A stretch of DNA of 39,734 nt from Nitrospirales bacterium (GTDB taxonomy: Bacteria > Nitrospirota > Nitrospiria > Nitrospirales > UBA8639). Within the stretch, counting starts at the first letter, position 1, and each line of letters opens with the position of its first letter. Shown piece by piece: positions 1 through 39,734 of the stretch. The notes under the pieces are model-generated. The model was not told where the DNA came from, did not search any database, and saw only the letters and a list, made by a program, of their open reading frames with translations. A program made the position numbers and the translations under genes. The stretch is taken from positions 1-39,734 of the forward strand of contig JAJDBR010000280.1 in the NCBI GenBank assembly GCA_029261275.1. Reading direction: 5' to 3'.

Positions 1-141
1 ACAAGATGTAGTGTACAATCTTGTTTCTTCCGGTCGCCGTTCCAAGCAACACCGGATTCGAGGGGGTTGAGTCGCTTAGCGTCTCGGCCCTTTCGTTTTT
101 ATAGACTACCACCGCTCTCCCCTGTTGTAAAATTGGTCATG
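1..141. repeat. Terminal direct repeat, left copy
   Basis: Bases 1-141 are identical to 39594-39734. An exact overlap of 141 bases is what a de Bruijn assembler with a maximum k of 141 leaves on a circular contig, so I read it as circular closure and not as a proven physical terminal repeat. The unit genome would then be about 39,593 bp. The copy holds the + strand terminator (64-100) and the 3' end of the interrupted gene at 99-383. Confidence 0.9.
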
Positions 142-11212: not shown

Positions 11213-11851
11213 ATGACTAGCTTAATTGATATTACAGGCCAAATATTTGGCCGCCTAACGGTTCTTAAGAAGGGGCCGACCAGAGATCGCACAACAACTT
11301 GGGTTTGTGAATGTAAATGCGGAAATTATACAACCGTGTTAAAAAATAATCTTACATCCGGTAACACCATTTCTTGCGGATGTTATAACGCAGACGTAGT
11401 AAAAGCTGCATCAACAACCCACGGTATGAGACACACACAAGAATATAATGCTTGGGCAGGCATGAAAAATAGATGTAATAACGATCCTCGCTATATAAAA
11501 CGAAAAATTAATGTGTGTAAAAAATGGATAAATAATTTTCAATCATTTTATGACGACATTGGCCCACGACCAAGTGCAGCGCACTCAATTGATCGGATTA
11601 ACAACGACGGCAATTACGAACCTGATAATTGTCGGTGGGCTACCGCAACACAACAAGCACAAAATCGCCGGAAAACATCAAAAACGTCATCCGGTATCGT
11701 TGGTGTTTATTGGAACAAAAAACAATCAAAATGGGTTGCAAGAATAACAGCGAACAAACAAGTTATTTACTTAGGTTGCTTTACCGTTCTTTCCGAAGCA
11801 ATCACAGCACGCGAAAAAGCCGAACTAAAATATTGGAGTAAAGTATGTTGA
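11213..11851 (+). CDS. Zinc-ribbon HNH-type endonuclease with AP2 domain (212 aa)
   Basis: A mobile endonuclease gene on the strand opposite to the surrounding late genes. An N-terminal zinc ribbon (WVCECKCGN and ISCGC; residues 30-58), an HNH-like core (EYNAWAGMKNRCNN, then AHSIDRINNDGNYEPDNCRW at 123-142) and a C-terminal AP2 DNA-binding domain (160-207, GIVGVYWNKKQSKWVARI). This architecture is well known in phage homing-type proteins. It is A/T-rich relative to its neighbours. It is coupled by overlap to a membrane microprotein. The 36-base gap to 11176 must hold any promoters for both directions; I see none that is convincing. Confidence 0.85.
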   Translation: MTSLIDITGQIFGRLTVLKKGPTRDRTTTWVCECKCGNYTTVLKNNLTSGNTISCGCYNADVVKAASTTHGMRHTQEYNAWAGMKNRCNNDPRYIKRKINVCKKWINNFQSFYDDIGPRPSAAHSIDRINNDGNYEPDNCRWATATQQAQNRRKTSKTSSGIVGVYWNKKQSKWVARITANKQVIYLGCFTVLSEAITAREKAELKYWSKVC

Positions 11852-20942: not shown

Positions 20943-22076
20943 TTAGTTGGCGATTCTTAAAACCTTGAATCCGACACCGCCTGAATCATCCGCACCAACA
21001 GACACTTGCTGTAATGCGCCGTTATCCAGATCGTAAAGCCACAAAGACGTTTCAGTTGCAGCAAGGTCTGCTGAATCCTCGACTCGCAAAGCCTCAATCG
21101 CGCCACAAATTACAGAGACATTATCAGCAATGTGGTGACTTATTCCGGTATCAGTATCAGATTGCCAACTGTAAGTAGGGATCGTTGTGCCATTCGCCAG
21201 CGTTAGTGAGTGAGGGATATAGAAATTTCCGGCGCTTGGACCCATAAACGCAGTGCCGTTCCACGTGAATTGTTGAACACCGGCAATCGCAAGACTCAGG
21301 CTGTTGTCTATGACCTCCCAAAACCCCGTGTTGCCATCACCAAAAGCTACTGTAGGCGCTCCAGCGCTACCACCAAGTGGGAGCGTTATCTGCTCACCAG
21401 TCTCAAGCGAGTGCATCTGGGCACGAGTCATCTTCTTTGATGTGCCGCCCTGATTAACGGCGAACTCATCCGTAGTGGCGGCAGTAGTCACCGCCGGTAG
21501 AGCTGAAATTTTTGCATCTGCCATGTTTATGCCTGTAAAGAGTGAGTCAATAATCGGGTTGGCAACACCAGCAACAATTGCATCGCCGGTTGCGTTTGGA
21601 TGCAGTCCGTCGCCACTGTCATTCGCCGCTAATAGTTCGTCTGTGCCAGGATCTTCTAGCGCCGTGTAAATATCTAAATAAGTGAATCCCTGAATCGATG
21701 CCTGTGCAGCCAGCCAGGTGTTGTAATCGTCGGTAAGTGTTTGAAGCGCCGATGTCCAGTTAACATTGTTCTTCCACGGCGTCATGCCCATGACCAGCGT
21801 GGTTAGCCCACCTGTTGTTGCACTGGTTACTATCGAAGTTAGTGCCGTCTTGATGTCGGCCAGTGTTTCACCAGCTACAGCATCATTAACGCCGCCCTGT
21901 ATCACGGTATAAACCGTGGTGTTAATTGCGTTGTCTACCTTTGATTGGTAGGTAGGCTCGATATGGACAATCAGCTTGTTCCCACCGCCCGCAAAGTCAT
22001 TTACAGTGGTATTTAATAATGGCGGCCAGGTTCCAGCACTGATGGAATCGCCAACAACAAAACCAAGAATACTCAC
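20943..22076 (-). CDS. SGNH/GDSL hydrolase fused to fibre-like C-terminal region (377 aa)
   Basis: An N-terminal SGNH esterase domain (about residues 1-180): block I FVVGDSIS with Ser11, block III QGGVND with Asn64, block V DGLHPN with Asp156 and His159. These are the catalytic Ser, oxyanion Asn and Asp/His pair. After a linker comes a region typical of virion fibres (DAKISALPAVTTAATTDEFA) and a Gly/Ser/Thr-rich beta part. Likely a virion enzyme that deacetylates or trims surface polysaccharide. GTG start in a TAGTG overlap. The position between portal and scaffold genes is unusual for a receptor enzyme. Confidence 0.75.
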   Translation of the reverse strand: MSILGFVVGDSISAGTWPPLLNTTVNDFAGGGNKLIVHIEPTYQSKVDNAINTTVYTVIQGGVNDAVAGETLADIKTALTSIVTSATTGGLTTLVMGMTPWKNNVNWTSALQTLTDDYNTWLAAQASIQGFTYLDIYTALEDPGTDELLAANDSGDGLHPNATGDAIVAGVANPIIDSLFTGINMADAKISALPAVTTAATTDEFAVNQGGTSKKMTRAQMHSLETGEQITLPLGGSAGAPTVAFGDGNTGFWEVIDNSLSLAIAGVQQFTWNGTAFMGPSAGNFYIPHSLTLANGTTIPTYSWQSDTDTGISHHIADNVSVICGAIEALRVEDSADLAATETSLWLYDLDNGALQQVSVGADDSGGVGFKVLRIAN

Positions 22077-28422: not shown

Positions 28423-28725
28423 TTAACCAGTCTTTCTCACAACCTTGACCAGTATTGATCTTGATTCTGTTCTGGCCACGGTATCTGCTGTAACGATTTG
28501 TGTTTTTACCCAGTATTCTGAATTTAATGCAGTGCCTGATGGTACAGAAAAATAGGCGGTTGCTGTAGTGGTTGTGTTTGATTCGTCTGAAATCGTCAGG
28601 TTTGTGTTAGTGACTGACCATGTTACTGAGGCGATTGTTGAGGTTCCAAGCCATCTGGCGAACTTCCATTCGAACAATATCTTGTCGCCTGGTTCTATCT
28701 GTATAATTTCGTTAGCAACGCTCAC
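28423..28725 (-). CDS. Ig-like small virion protein (100 aa)
   Basis: ATGA overlap with the large tail gene. The sequence (IQIEPGDKILFEWKFARWLG, IASVTWSVTNTNLTISDESN, SEYWVKTQIVTADTVARTES) has the strand pattern of a single immunoglobulin-like domain, as in fibre-to-tail adaptor proteins. It separates the receptor-binding genes from the terminase genes. Confidence 0.6.
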   Translation of the reverse strand: MSVANEIIQIEPGDKILFEWKFARWLGTSTIASVTWSVTNTNLTISDESNTTTTATAYFSVPSGTALNSEYWVKTQIVTADTVARTESRSILVKVVRKTG

Positions 28726-30806
28726 CAGTTAAACTCCGTTCGCTCTTTGCGTATGTCAAAAGATGATTTTTCTGGTAAGACCGTTACCGAAAACTGTGCT
28801 TTGCTAAGAGTGGTCGAAACCTCCCCGTCCTCATCCTGTGGTATTTGTACAGCATAGACAATATTGATGTTCGTTGCATCGCCTACCGAGTCTGTTGCTG
28901 TGACAACCGCGACATCGCCGCTTTCCGCTGTTGGTGTGCCACTTATCGTACCTGCGTTGTGCGTAACGCCATCAGGTAGATTAGCCACATCCCAGACAAT
29001 GACATCTCCCTCAAAGTCATCGATGTAAGTGCTTAATACTATTGGTGTTATTGCCTCATCGACAATCCATAGCTGTCCAGGTATTGCCGAACCAATGAGT
29101 GCCGGCGCAACATTGTTGATTGTGAACGTTGCCTCACCGCACATAGCTCCAAGGGAAACATCGTAGGCATCGACAACTATTGTCTGGCGTGACTGATCGC
29201 TTGCAGCGGCATAAGAAAACGTTCCATCAACATTCGCTGTTACCGTATAGCCGTCAGAACTTGTCAGGAGGTCAATTCGTTCGATATCTCCATCGGCAAG
29301 ACTTGAGTTCTCAAGCACAGAAATGCCCGGCGCGATAACACCACCGCTTGTATAGGTCGTGTATCCGGTTGAGTCGATGTCATCAAGGTCCAGTGTGTTC
29401 GCATCAACTACCGTTACATCATAATAAAGCAGGCCATCATCAGGGCTTAGCGACTTATCGCCACCATCGTTTAGCTCTGTCATTCCACCAACACCCCAGA
29501 TGCGACATTGCTGGGCTGTGGTAAATCCGTGACCTGTAACGGTAATTCTACAAGGATCTGCCTTCGATGCTGCTGTTATCTCCTTGAGTGCAATTGTGAC
29601 ATGCTGCTTACCAGTCGGGGCATCAAGTGCCTCATCAACCAGTGTCGTGAGTGCACTATCACCATCTGTATTGCTCGATACAACGTAAAGATCATAGATC
29701 GGAAATGTCAGGCCACTAAGAACCAGATCACTTGGCTCGGTGTCACCCAGCATTGCTTTGTTAGCACTTGCCTGTGCCGCTACATCTCCCGTTCCATTGC
29801 CGGCCTTGACCTGTGCAATGGTTGGCGCTGTCTCGTCTTTCTTGACGGCAACCGCGTACATCGTGGCATCAAAGTCTGTCTCTGCCGTGATGTTGTAACT
29901 GGTCGAGTCTTGAAGGGTTACCGAAGGGGCAGTCAAATAACCCGGTGTCTCATCAACAAAAGAAAGCGTTGAACCGGACGCATTGCTATCACCAAGGTTT
30001 TGCTCGACAAAGCAATACAATGTGTCGGTATGATCTAAAGTTCCTCGAACCGCCGTGAAGTTGATCGATGTATCAGCCCATGATGTTACTGTCTGCTCTA
30101 CCGCATTGGCATCATTGATATTGTCAGTCGGTGATATCTTGACAAAACCAACGCCCTGGCTTGCACCGAAATTCGTTCCGGTAATCGTTACATTATTTTG
30201 TCCATTGAATATGGTCGTGTCGTCAATAGACGAAATAGTCGGTGTGGTTGTCAGATCACCAAATTCACCTGATTCCCACTGGACATCTGTTTCGGTTACC
30301 GCTGTAAAACCACCGATACCCGGCTTACCCGTTGATAACGTTGCGTCTGTTTCTGTTTTTCTTAAGGTCCCCTTGAAATAAACCCTTAAAGTAGTTCCCT
30401 CACATTCGAGCCTTAATACATCACCAGCACCAGGGGCGGATGCAACGTTAACCGTCGATCCTATCGCGGTAAAAGCACCCGCACCGTCATTGTGTTCAAG
30501 CAATACATCAACCGTTGAATTGCCCTTGGCATTCGCAGAGGCCACATAACACTCTGCCGTTGTCGGGTCCATTCTGACCGCGACTTGTGCCCATGCATTC
30601 GTCGTGTCTACAAAGACTGATAAAGTGCCTTGCACATAATGATCGTTCGCATAAGCCTCAGCATCACGCTTGGCCATGCAAGCCGATACTGTCGTGCTGG
30701 TCTTAAGATCACTACTGCCAGTAATCTCCATGACATCGTAAGTGCCCTGACCATTGGAGTAATTACCGCCAATCGTGGCACGTTCAAAATCGTCTGTTGC
30801 GGCCAT
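28722..30806 (-). CDS. Multi-domain tail fibre / adhesin (694 aa)
   Basis: Visible domain order: an N-terminal concanavalin-like jelly roll (residues 1-185), an IPT/TIG immunoglobulin-like domain (about 190-285, PTISSIDDTTIFNGQNNVTI), further beta domains, a GHGFTTAQQCRIWGVGGMTE domain typical of phage tail proteins, and an Ig-like putative cell-wall-binding domain (VWDVANLPDGVTHNAGTISG). It ends with a charged stretch (SSFDIRKERTEFNW). Almost no cysteines. Probably a receptor-binding or tail-tip protein. Confidence 0.75.
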   Translation of the reverse strand: MAATDDFERATIGGNYSNGQGTYDVMEITGSSDLKTSTTVSACMAKRDAEAYANDHYVQGTLSVFVDTTNAWAQVAVRMDPTTAECYVASANAKGNSTVDVLLEHNDGAGAFTAIGSTVNVASAPGAGDVLRLECEGTTLRVYFKGTLRKTETDATLSTGKPGIGGFTAVTETDVQWESGEFGDLTTTPTISSIDDTTIFNGQNNVTITGTNFGASQGVGFVKISPTDNINDANAVEQTVTSWADTSINFTAVRGTLDHTDTLYCFVEQNLGDSNASGSTLSFVDETPGYLTAPSVTLQDSTSYNITAETDFDATMYAVAVKKDETAPTIAQVKAGNGTGDVAAQASANKAMLGDTEPSDLVLSGLTFPIYDLYVVSSNTDGDSALTTLVDEALDAPTGKQHVTIALKEITAASKADPCRITVTGHGFTTAQQCRIWGVGGMTELNDGGDKSLSPDDGLLYYDVTVVDANTLDLDDIDSTGYTTYTSGGVIAPGISVLENSSLADGDIERIDLLTSSDGYTVTANVDGTFSYAAASDQSRQTIVVDAYDVSLGAMCGEATFTINNVAPALIGSAIPGQLWIVDEAITPIVLSTYIDDFEGDVIVWDVANLPDGVTHNAGTISGTPTAESGDVAVVTATDSVGDATNINIVYAVQIPQDEDGEVSTTLSKAQFSVTVLPEKSSFDIRKERTEFNW

Positions 30807-31999
30807 TACAGCGCCGGATGAGGTGAGACGTAGCTATAACCCGTGTTAGCAGTGCTGGCACCGTGATTTTGTACCTCAGCAGCCGCCTTAGCCGTTGCTG
30901 TATCGCCGTTTGTCCCAGGTGTTAGCCAGTGAACCTCCGGATGTATAAACGAGCCTCCAATATTGGGATTAGGATGATCATCGCTAACAATGTATCTGGA
31001 TGGATCGCCAAACCTGCCTGGGGCCGGCACGTACTGGCCGAAAATCGGGTAGCCTCCGGGCTGCCAGTAGTAACAATTCTCAAGGTCTGGATCGAATGCC
31101 ATTGAATCGTGCGCACCAAACCCGGCAAAGGCTCCCATAGATCCCTCTAACGCTCGACCGTCCGTGTAGTCCTCGTTGGTTAAGATGCAGGTGTAATTAC
31201 GTGCTTGAAAGTCCAGCTTGTGACATCCGAAAGAGCCGCACTTTTGATGTATCGCCATGCCAGCCTGCCCGCCTTGCATGAAGATGTTTTCCAATTTCAC
31301 CCATCGCAGGAACGTCATATCCCCACCAACACCGCTGTTATCAGCGCCCTGCTGTTGGAATAAATCTTGGTGAACAAACCACTGGCTACCAACAGAACCC
31401 TCAAATCGACTGTTCTGTATATGGAATTCCCTGGTCGTATTAGCGGGCGTAACGTAAGGGCCGTCAATACCGCGGCTGTCGATCATGTCACATTCCATGC
31501 CGTTAGCCTCGATCTTAACGCCATGACAAAAAACGTTAGAACGGGCACTAATAAGGATCGCAATACCACCATTTTGAAGGATGGGATTTGCGTTAAAAGC
31601 ATTCGGTGTCGTCGGCCTTGAATCGAATATCTGGCCAATACCACCACCTGATGGCACCTCAAGGTCAAGTTCTGGAGCTTCGACAAATACTTGTTGCCAA
31701 TTGCGGATGTTTATAGGGATCGGCAGTGCCAGCGATTCCCCTGACAGATTGAGTATCAGGTCTTTTGTACCGTCCCCCGTGATCTGGTAGTGATCGCCAC
31801 CCGGAACAATGTTGGAATTGACTGACGAGAAAGTGTCCCTGTAAGTCGATTCAAGCAAAGAAACAGTATTTATCTCCACAGCGCCCGCACTAGGCGTTCC
31901 TGGAGATAGATTGACAACATCCCATGCAAAGCCACCGCCACCAACACCCGTGGTTGTTCGTGAAATGCTCGGACCGAACTCGCTGGTATTAGCTGTCAT
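30806..31999 (-). CDS. Tailspike-like beta-helix protein (397 aa)
   Basis: The ATG at 31999 overlaps the previous stop (ATGA). The middle has right-handed parallel beta-helix character (NPILQNGGIAILISARSNVF, CHGVKIEANGMECDMIDSRG, FHIQNSRFEGSVGSQWF). The end is rich in Gly/Pro/aromatics. Beta-helix proteins next to fibres often carry glycan-degrading activity, but no catalytic residues can be assigned by eye. Confidence 0.65.
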   Translation of the reverse strand: MTANTSEFGPSISRTTTGVGGGGFAWDVVNLSPGTPSAGAVEINTVSLLESTYRDTFSSVNSNIVPGGDHYQITGDGTKDLILNLSGESLALPIPINIRNWQQVFVEAPELDLEVPSGGGIGQIFDSRPTTPNAFNANPILQNGGIAILISARSNVFCHGVKIEANGMECDMIDSRGIDGPYVTPANTTREFHIQNSRFEGSVGSQWFVHQDLFQQQGADNSGVGGDMTFLRWVKLENIFMQGGQAGMAIHQKCGSFGCHKLDFQARNYTCILTNEDYTDGRALEGSMGAFAGFGAHDSMAFDPDLENCYYWQPGGYPIFGQYVPAPGRFGDPSRYIVSDDHPNPNIGGSFIHPEVHWLTPGTNGDTATAKAAAEVQNHGASTANTGYSYVSPHPAL

Positions 32000-33396
32000 G
32001 GTGTAGCGTCCACGCCCTTGCACTTGTATTCGTAAAGCGTGTCCTCGGTAAGCCCTGTATCTGAATGCGTTATCAGCGCAAGGTTTTGCAGAGAAACCTC
32101 CTCAAAATCCACCGTTGCTGTCGTGTTCAAAAGACCTGAATTAAGAAAAAATCCAGCCTGAACATTGGCGTTCATGACAATGGTTTCCTGCCTGTTTTGT
32201 GTCCAGCCAGTATCGCCTTGCTTAAAGATATAGCAGGTAAACACATCGCCGGTTCGATTGATCCAAAAGTAATAATCACCACTTAAATCAGTTTGTGGGT
32301 TGGCAAACTGAATAGACCCACCGGTAACGGCTCGAAATTTAACCTCTGAGAATTTCGGGTCAGGTGATGAAGCAGAGTTAGATAATCTCCCTGATGTGAT
32401 GAATTTTGAATCAACAGCAATGGTTTCTCTTACCATTAGTTGCGCAGATGTCTTGCTTAAAAGCGGCGCTGTATAACTTGGTATGCGGCAGGTTAAATCA
32501 AAGTCACCACTCACCGGTCCTGATATATAGTAAATGTCATCAGCCTGTACGACACTACTGTCAAGCCCGATAACGCCCTCTGCCGTAACCTCCCAGTCAG
32601 CACCAGTCTGTGTAGAGCTTGGGCTTACCCCGTGCGTACCAATCGTGTTGGCACTCATCTGGATAGAAATGCCGGCGCTTATGCTTTTTGTCGCCAGCAA
32701 TGAAAACGACCCAGCACCGGCTTTGCTGTGAAGCTCAACAGATGCCATCCCATTAGCATCGCTTGCCGGCGACTTGGGGTCAGAGGGTGGGATGATGACA
32801 ATATCGTTTTGCGTATCAGTACCCGTCACTGACTTTATCAGCGGTACTGTTGGTGCCAGTGTGTCTGATGCCGGCGTTACAATAGATAGCGCGAAAGAAT
32901 TTGAAAAGAAATCATTACCGCCAACCGACGCCTTAAGCTGAAATACCCCAGCACCTAGAACTGTTGCTGGTGTGCTGAGAAAATCAAGGCTTTGAATAGT
33001 AGCTAAAAGAGTTGCCGCCGTATCACCGGAAATATCTATGATGCTGATAACGGCTGTTGCCGCCCCCGTTCCGGACATGTAGGCCGTGCGCAATTCTTGT
33101 GAGAATGCCGATGACTGCAATTGATTTTCAAAATTAGGAACAGTTGACCATGAAACATCAAGCGCAGCAGCGGGCGCTGGTCTTTGGGTATCGACATTAC
33201 CGGACGCATCGGGAACAACTGTGATAGAGCGAGCAGTAAGCGTCACCTCGTAATAAACCTCTGCGCCAATCCTGATCTGATAAGTACCAGGACCTTGATT
33301 GATCGCGCTCTCAACGGCGTCAACCAGGCTCTGATGGCGGGAAACGTACTCATCACCCCAGACCTCAAGGTAAGCCTTTCTGGTGATTTCAAGCAC
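31996..33396 (-). CDS. Tail fibre / adhesin, first late gene (466 aa)
   Basis: GTG start with GAGG four bases upstream. The N-terminus (MLEITRKAYLEVWGDEYVSR) is a helical structural anchor. A beta-rich body follows, then a C-terminal jelly roll (about residues 290-440, GPVSGDFDLTCRIPSYTAPL, YYFWINRTGDVFTCYIFKQG) similar to DUF1349/LamG-type carbohydrate-binding folds. It heads the late operon below the structured leader. Confidence 0.65.
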   Translation of the reverse strand: MLEITRKAYLEVWGDEYVSRHQSLVDAVESAINQGPGTYQIRIGAEVYYEVTLTARSITVVPDASGNVDTQRPAPAAALDVSWSTVPNFENQLQSSAFSQELRTAYMSGTGAATAVISIIDISGDTAATLLATIQSLDFLSTPATVLGAGVFQLKASVGGNDFFSNSFALSIVTPASDTLAPTVPLIKSVTGTDTQNDIVIIPPSDPKSPASDANGMASVELHSKAGAGSFSLLATKSISAGISIQMSANTIGTHGVSPSSTQTGADWEVTAEGVIGLDSSVVQADDIYYISGPVSGDFDLTCRIPSYTAPLLSKTSAQLMVRETIAVDSKFITSGRLSNSASSPDPKFSEVKFRAVTGGSIQFANPQTDLSGDYYFWINRTGDVFTCYIFKQGDTGWTQNRQETIVMNANVQAGFFLNSGLLNTTATVDFEEVSLQNLALITHSDTGLTEDTLYEYKCKGVDATP

Positions 33397-33412: not shown

Positions 33413-33431
33413 AGCCGGATGTTCACCGGCT
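33413..33431 (-). other. Second leader hairpin before first late gene
   Basis: Minus RNA AGCCGG-UGAACAU-CCGGCU (33431-33413) followed by UUAUUCG. The stem is strong, but the following U-run is short, so termination is uncertain. It could instead shield or present the GTG start 17 bases downstream. Confidence 0.4.
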
Positions 33432-33468: not shown

Positions 33469-33577
33469 AAAAAAATACCGCCGTTAAGCGGTTGGGGTCT
33501 GCCACCCGGAGGAGTTACACCCCGTTGTTATATCCATCGCTCTCCACGGGTTTCGTATGCATCCTACTAACCGCTTA
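33469..33577 (-). promoter_or_regulatory. Late leader: attenuator with mutually exclusive stems
   Basis: Minus RNA has a terminator, ACCGC-UUAACG-GCGGU (33492-33477), then A and U7 (33475-33469). The upstream UAAGCGGUU (33577-33569) pairs perfectly over 9 bp with AACCGCUUA (33493-33485), which contains the whole 5' arm of the terminator. The two pairings exclude each other. The 75 nt enclosed can form CCCGU/ACGGG and GGGU-GGCAG-ACCC stems. This equals a riboswitch- or attenuator-type architecture, or a lambda tR'-like Q-dependent leader, between the Q-like gene and the first late gene. Confidence 0.6.
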
Positions 33578-33638
33578 CCGCTACAGGTGGCATTGCGTTT
33601 ATTCAGGGCGCAAGAAAGCGCCATAAGACGGTCAGATT

Positions 33639-33989
33639 TTAATTGAATCCATCCAGAGTTGCAATGTGTTCACCGACTCTGGATTTTGCCTCTAATAACA
33701 ACAACTTAATACCATGTTCAGAGGTGAAAAATTGTAACGATATTTCTATGCAGGACAATCTGCCGAGATAATATCTTGCAATGACACGCCAGTAAGCCTT
33801 TTCTTCCAGCTTCACTCTTGCCATCGCTCGCTCTGTGATAGCGATTTCATCGGTCATTTCGTAAGAGTCGGCGGCTTGGTCAAGCCGTTCCTTCAGATAT
33901 CCGGAAACACTGTTGACAGATCCCATAGACGGGCTTCGCGCCCAGTTAGCCCAGCGTTCTAAACGCTCGTCCAGTTCCTTGCTGTCCAT
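33639..33989 (-). CDS. Q-like late antitermination protein (116 aa)
   Basis: The N-terminus MDSKELDERLERWANWARSP is typical of the phage Q/antitermQ family (LE.W..W.R pattern). The rest is helical, with a region like a sigma-type helix-turn-helix (AYWRVIARYYLGRLSCIEIS) near the end. The position is as expected: last gene of the leftward early-middle operon, directly upstream of the leader and terminator that precede the late genes. It should act on RNA polymerase to read through that terminator. Shorter than lambda Q (207 aa). Confidence 0.7.
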   Translation of the reverse strand: MDSKELDERLERWANWARSPSMGSVNSVSGYLKERLDQAADSYEMTDEIAITERAMARVKLEEKAYWRVIARYYLGRLSCIEISLQFFTSEHGIKLLLLEAKSRVGEHIATLDGFN

Positions 33990-39421: not shown

Positions 39422-39693
39422 GGCTCCCTTGTGGGACCGAACTTACAGCAGCTATGCCTATTCCGGGTTTCTGCCAGAAATTTCTGACTATTGAGCTGAT
39501 ATTTCACCTGGAAGCCATCCAGCGGGGTTCGGGTTACGGCCAAACGTCGATAAGCGCCGACCGGTATATGTTGGGAGGGGTTTTGCAGAAGGCACAAGAT
39601 GTAGTGTACAATCTTGTTTCTTCCGGTCGCCGTTCCAAGCAACACCGGATTCGAGGGGGTTGAGTCGCTTAGCGTCTCGGCCCTTTCGTTTTT
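39422..39693 (+). ncRNA. Candidate + strand structured transcript at the circle junction
   Basis: No gene continues through 39371-39593 on the minus strand. The + sense contains TCCC-UUGU-GGGA (39425-39436), palindrome CAGAAATTTCTG (39475-39486), CUGGA/UCCAG hairpin (39508-39522), CGACCGG (39558-39564) pairing with CCGGUCG (39623-39629), and inside that the ACAAGAU hairpin (39594-39617), then the strong terminator. A frame of 69 codons (39454-39663, MPIPGFCQKFL...) also runs + but its stop falls in the terminator stem, so a small gene cannot be excluded. No promoter is obvious. Confidence 0.45.
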
Positions 39694-39734
39694 ATAGACT
39701 ACCACCGCTCTCCCCTGTTGTAAAATTGGTCATG
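39594..39734. repeat. Terminal direct repeat, right copy
   Basis: Identical to bases 1-141. A single physical copy is expected in the circular or permuted molecule. It starts with a hairpin: arms ACAAGATGTA and TAC-A-ATCTTGT, with a 3-nt loop. Confidence 0.9.
39657..39693 (+). terminator. Strong + strand terminator at the circle junction (also 64-100)
   Basis: GGGUUGAGUCGC-UUA-GCGUCUCGGCCC, then UUUCGUUUUU. The stem has 12 positions with one U-U mismatch and two G-U pairs. The G-U pairs exist only in the + sense. The minus strand has no U-run after the hairpin. So it ends a rightward transcript, although all flanking genes run leftward. Confidence 0.8.

Follow-up and report, generated by a model that had tools for sequence, protein, structure and literature searches.

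The window, the 39,734-nucleotide stretch of DNA from an uncultivated phage that was analyzed, carries on its minus strand a Q-like late antiterminator gene, a predicted untranslated leader with an intrinsic terminator, and a block of late phage genes. An initial annotation had placed a switch-like RNA exactly between the Q-like gene and the whole late block, and the gene order agrees with that placement. Upstream of the Q-like gene are the recombination genes Erf and YqaJ, NinB, YbcO, and a Holliday resolvase, in a lambda/P22-like order. Downstream, all on the minus strand, are terminase, a P22-type portal, capsid, and head closure genes. The features needed for the argument are as follows.

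33639-33989, minus strand: Q-like late antiterminator gene, 116 aa (PF06530, PHROG 79)
33636-33664, minus strand: predicted pR' promoter, TTGCAA (33664-33659), 17 nt, TAAAAT (33641-33636)
33469-33629, minus strand: predicted leader RNA of about 161 nt; the promoter position gives its inferred +1 (33629), and the terminator its end at the last U
33597-33629, minus strand: part of the leader common to L002 (start GTCT, hairpin GGCGC-loop-GCGCC, then CCCTGAATAAAC)
33497-33592, minus strand: second, interleaved helix, UGCCACC (33592-33586) with GGUGGCA (33503-33497)
33569-33577, minus strand: 5' strand of the competing helix, UAAGCGGUU
33485-33493, minus strand: 3' strand of the competing helix, AACCGCUUA, overlapping the 5' arm of the tR' terminator
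33484-33537, minus strand: possible 17-codon leader ORF, MDITTGCNSSGWQTPTA, with GGAG at 33545-33542 and its stop in the terminator loop
33469-33492, minus strand: intrinsic terminator tR' (6-bp stem, UAAC loop, A, U7)
33413-33431, minus strand: second, weaker terminator-like hairpin, AGCCGG-7-CCGGCT, then TTATT
31996-33396, minus strand: first late-block gene, 466 aa; over its N-terminal 60 aa it is homologous to its positional counterpart in L002

RESULTS

Gene context, promoter-like site, and terminator

The product of the Q-like gene matches PF06530 (Phage_antitermQ) with an E value of 6.9e-6 and 26.4 bits, barely above the cut-off of 26, and it also matches PHROG 79 ("anti-termination protein Q-like"). 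The assignment of a Q-family gene directly upstream of the leader is marginal but consistent, and the Q protein of L002, the closest relative that we found, is encoded in the same place. An AlphaFold model of the Q-like protein (pLDDT 54) was too poor for use. At the other end of the region, the 466-aa protein encoded at 31996-33396 belongs to no family, only its N-terminal 60 aa recurring in L002, and a 694-aa protein with TIG/FCCH-like domains is encoded ahead of terminase (28722-30806, minus strand).

The -10 hexamer of the predicted pR' overlaps the stop codon of the Q-like gene. Its 9 of 12 consensus matches are alone not significant, as the match count in the region is that expected by chance. 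Promoter-like sites with stronger hexamers occupy the same place in L002 (TTGACA-17-AAAAAT) and in L109-L111 (TTGACA-18-TATAAA), and in L109-L111 the site again overlaps the Q stop. Inspection by eye gave no convincing Q-binding repeat or -10-like pause element, in that no clear direct repeat or TANNNT was common to the window and L002.

Between the promoter-like site and the late genes lies an intrinsic terminator, a hairpin of ACCGCU, UAAC, and GGCGGU (33492-33477) with a computed free energy of -7.4 kcal/mol, followed by an A and by seven U residues (33475-33469). The weaker terminator-like hairpin at 33413-33431 sits between this terminator and the first late gene.

A helix that competes with the terminator

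In the minus-strand RNA, UAAGCGGUU (33577-33569) pairs perfectly with AACCGCUUA (33493-33485) over 9 bp, with 75 nt between the two strands. This pairing had been proposed in the initial annotation, and both its coordinates and its complementarity were confirmed from the sequence; it can be extended to 12 positions with one mismatch. The annotation was also right that this pairing and the terminator with its U7 cannot both form, because ACCGCU is common to the two helices. The leader of the window contains a mutually exclusive terminator and putative antiterminator, as transcriptional riboswitch and attenuator leaders do.

The chance tests for pairings and helices were all post hoc, chosen with the sequence already seen. 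When the terminator was kept and the upstream leader was dinucleotide-shuffled, a Watson-Crick helix of at least 9 bp onto the 5' arm of the terminator arose in 3 of 2000 shuffles, or in 48 of 2000 when G-U pairs were counted, and a helix of at least 9 bp at any position of the leader arose in 2.6% of shuffles. Of the 38 distinct terminator-like sites compared, drawn from the window and 565 kb of related phage DNA, the tR' of the window alone had at least nine Watson-Crick pairs. The interleaved helix (UGCCACC/GGUGGCA) would make a pseudoknot together with the 9-bp helix, and two interleaved helices at least that long occurred in 0.3% of shuffles. Comparative support for the interleaved helix was nil, and in nested folding it was unpopulated, even with the 9-bp helix blocked.

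The description of the intervening region as GC-rich and able to fold fared less well. A hand count puts the GC content of the 75 nt between the strands at about 56%, compared to 46-51% in the window's 4-kb blocks, but the leader (146 nt) shows no excess folding, at -42.2 kcal/mol versus -43.1 +/- 4.2 kcal/mol for shuffles (z 0.21). Partition functions calculated for RNA beginning at 33629 show that the 9-bp helix is dominant (0.7-0.94) only while the transcript end lies at about 33485-33480 and that the terminator is favored once its 3' arm has emerged (0.95-0.98 at 33477-33476). The equilibrium outcome is termination, while kinetics are not settled by an equilibrium calculation. Because the 9-bp helix is favored just ahead of the terminator's 3' arm, a transient contest between the two is possible.

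Comparison with related Q lineages

In 2.9 million viral contigs, the only close Q relative was that of L002, which is 60% identical; the Q proteins of a distant group, L109-L114, show 27-30% identity. Baits made from Q and neighboring proteins led only to L002 and to the L109-L114 group. Searches of 270 genomes from the class, of 396 from the phylum, and of the genome collection yielded no Q relative, and tblastn found no relative of the Q-like protein among 50,697 phage records.

The three lineages (the window, L002, and L109-L114) have in common the order of Q, a promoter-like site at the 3' end of Q, a leader, a terminator, and the late genes. Their leaders measure 161 nt in the window, 54 nt in L002, and 73 nt in the L109 group, and their terminators carry U6-U7. 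Since the leader of the window is two to three times longer than those of its relatives, the extra stretch of about 110 nt may serve some function. The first 33 nt or so of the window leader align with L002. Both leaders begin with GTCT, a hairpin, and CCCTRAATAAAC, and L002 has GTCTAAGGCGTGCTTCGTGCACCCTAAATAAAC where the window has CCCTGAATAAAC. Directly after this common start, L002 has its terminator, AGCCCUGAGAGGGCUUUUUUU, and it lacks the roughly 110 nt in which the putative switch lies. Neither L002 nor L109-L111 has a Watson-Crick or G-U helix onto the terminator arm. According to the initial annotation, homologs with a broken 9-bp pairing and no compensating changes would speak against a switch, and L002 presents the strongest form of this, with the whole element missing. 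That absence argues against a required role for the element, though not against a lineage-specific one.

Homolog searches

An Rfam search, which the initial annotation had proposed as a check, gave only chance matches to the leader at gathering and at relaxed thresholds. When the leader was compared by BLAST with phages, plasmids, E. coli, and the genomes available for the family and the class, no homolog was returned; matches of 19 nt within the family fell in sequence that is unrelated and apparently codes for SecY- and AtpB-like proteins. We found no conserved sensor domain with covariation, as the segment had no homolog in these searches and is missing in L002 and L109-L111. Loci recovered by pattern scans with three leader pieces and the hairpin motif (L013, L014, L106, L107, and L108) proved unrelated. 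The resolvase, used as bait, recovered 80 loci, with a detectable Q relative only in L050-L052 and a similar leader in none. An HDV-type ribozyme was considered for the interleaved helices and was rejected on inspection, there being no P4 and no catalytic joining segment.

The frame of the 17-codon leader ORF is also open from an ATG at 33624, giving 46 codons (33484-33624, minus strand) that span most of the leader. The leader ORF peptide had no protein match, and the 46-codon frame likewise had no database match. The hits that did appear had E values above 1 and, where checked, lay on the opposite strand of other genes. The cI region of phage P4, suspected because of similar peptides, showed no similarity.

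DISCUSSION

On the evidence of sequence and its comparison, we consider it likely (a probability of about 0.75) that this region is an ordinary pR'-tR' leader of a late operon under Q control and that the 9-bp pairing, a lineage-specific feature, is not needed for late control. The pairing is probably dispensable, without an essential role. This reading draws on sequence features, gene order, comparative anatomy, and folding energies, with promoter use, Q action, and termination as its predicted elements. Transcription would start at the promoter overlapping the 3' end of Q, and a leader of about 161 nt would be made, with a default stop at the intrinsic terminator ending at 33469. By analogy with known Q systems, the Q-like protein would load on an early paused polymerase and take it through tR' into the late genes. 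Since it shares sequence with the terminator's 5' arm, the 9-bp pairing could compete briefly during transcription; it may slightly lower default termination and, in this phage, may modulate basal read-through.

The resemblance to lambdoid phages 21, 82, and lambda extends across the locus: Q lies directly upstream, with a promoter-like site at its 3' end, followed by an untranslated leader, an intrinsic terminator, and the whole late block, and the Q proteins belong to the same family (PF06530 / PHROG 79). The wider neighborhood is like that of lambda and P22, with NinB, YbcO, and resolvase upstream and terminase, portal, and capsid downstream. Compared to the lambdoid leaders, however, the Q protein of the window is very divergent, neither a Q-binding repeat nor a -10-like pause element was clear, and there is an additional stretch of about 110 nt with a helix that competes with tR'. 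Structural work on phage 21 has shown that its Q uses DNA elements for its recruitment at pR' and keeps hairpins from forming in the RNA exit channel (PMC6606751). Given that Q21 acts via DNA elements and the exit channel, no antiterminator RNA fold is needed. Of the two options in the initial annotation, the first stands in part: gene order, the promoter-like site, and two other Q lineages give good support to a Q-dependent tR'-type leader, but not to the "built-in antitermination fold" that was attached to it. Several observations count against our reading: a 9-bp helix onto the terminator arm is better than chance (3 of 2000 with Watson-Crick pairs), the leader has its additional length, a 9/12 promoter match is weak by itself, and neither a pause element nor a Q-binding repeat was convincing.

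The other option, a ligand- or protein-sensing RNA, is unsupported given that the segment is missing in L002 and has no Rfam match, no homolog in our searches, and no excess folding. Stated more broadly, the leader could be a true conditional RNA switch, whether a riboswitch or an attenuator controlled by protein or RNA, in which a signal chooses between the 9-bp antiterminator and tR' and the 9-bp helix closes a multibranch or pseudoknotted receptor between 33568 and 33494. The exact overlap with the terminator arm, rarely reproduced by shuffling, the rarity of the interleaved arrangement, and the fact that the 9-bp helix is the favored fold just before the 3' arm emerges would all fit such a switch. 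Yet the pairing is missing in both L002 and the L109 group, the statistics are post hoc and folding is not in excess (z 0.2), and the interleaved helix never formed in the nested ensemble, even with its competitor blocked. Riboswitch and attenuator leaders share with the window an exclusive helix and an intrinsic terminator that use one strand in common, but the window is without a conserved aptamer, homologs, or covariation, and the element is missing in the closest relative. We regard a conditional switch as unlikely. A related and distinctly doubtful idea is that the extra 110 nt or so are an acquired structured, possibly pseudoknotted RNA, whose 9-bp antiterminator would make late entry depend on Q and on a further signal. 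Were that segment a genuine sensor, phage late genes would be subject to a second checkpoint, and that would be novel.

Translation could provide the coupling instead. A ribosome on a small ORF whose stop codon is in the terminator loop, either the 17 codons from 33537 or the 46 from 33624, would cover the 5' arm and let polymerase pass. The ATG at 33537 does have GGAG upstream, and a stop TAA lies inside the terminator loop; a like arrangement occurs in 3.7% of shuffled leaders. Against this, the peptide has no homolog, the ORF contains no run of regulatory codons and is missing in L002, and Q is already present in this phage's late operon, making a translation-coupled attenuator very unlikely. 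We think it highly improbable that the leader folds into a put-like RNA antiterminator, as in HK022, that modifies polymerase directly. A structured cis RNA right behind a promoter in a lambda-type phage is in keeping with that idea in overall layout, but a Q gene is present and a two-stem fold is not favored in the leader. The put RNAs are about 70 nt long, form two long stem-loops, and act in early operons without protein (PMC9378689), and the gene context in the window differs.

If the leader is the Q-dependent one that we favor, the pR'-tR' layout of late control is now recorded for a divergent Q family without a relative in the phage reference collection. Our comparison also illustrates how a pairing that looks strikingly like a switch in one genome can be wholly missing from the nearest relative.

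Additional observations on the phage genome

An exact 141-bp direct repeat occupies both ends of the window (1-141 and 39594-39734), which suggests that the window is an entire phage genome of about 39,593 bp, circular or circularly permuted. The repeat itself is likely an assembly overlap. This apparent phage genome sits in a bacterial bin, and that bin need not be its host. At 11213-11851, on the plus strand and thus opposite to the flanking late genes, is an HNH endonuclease with an AP2-like domain (PHROG 374, E 1e-72), which looks like a free-standing homing endonuclease. A gene of the GDSL lipase/acylhydrolase family (20943-22076, minus strand; PF13472, E 3e-13) lies in the late block near the capsid genes.
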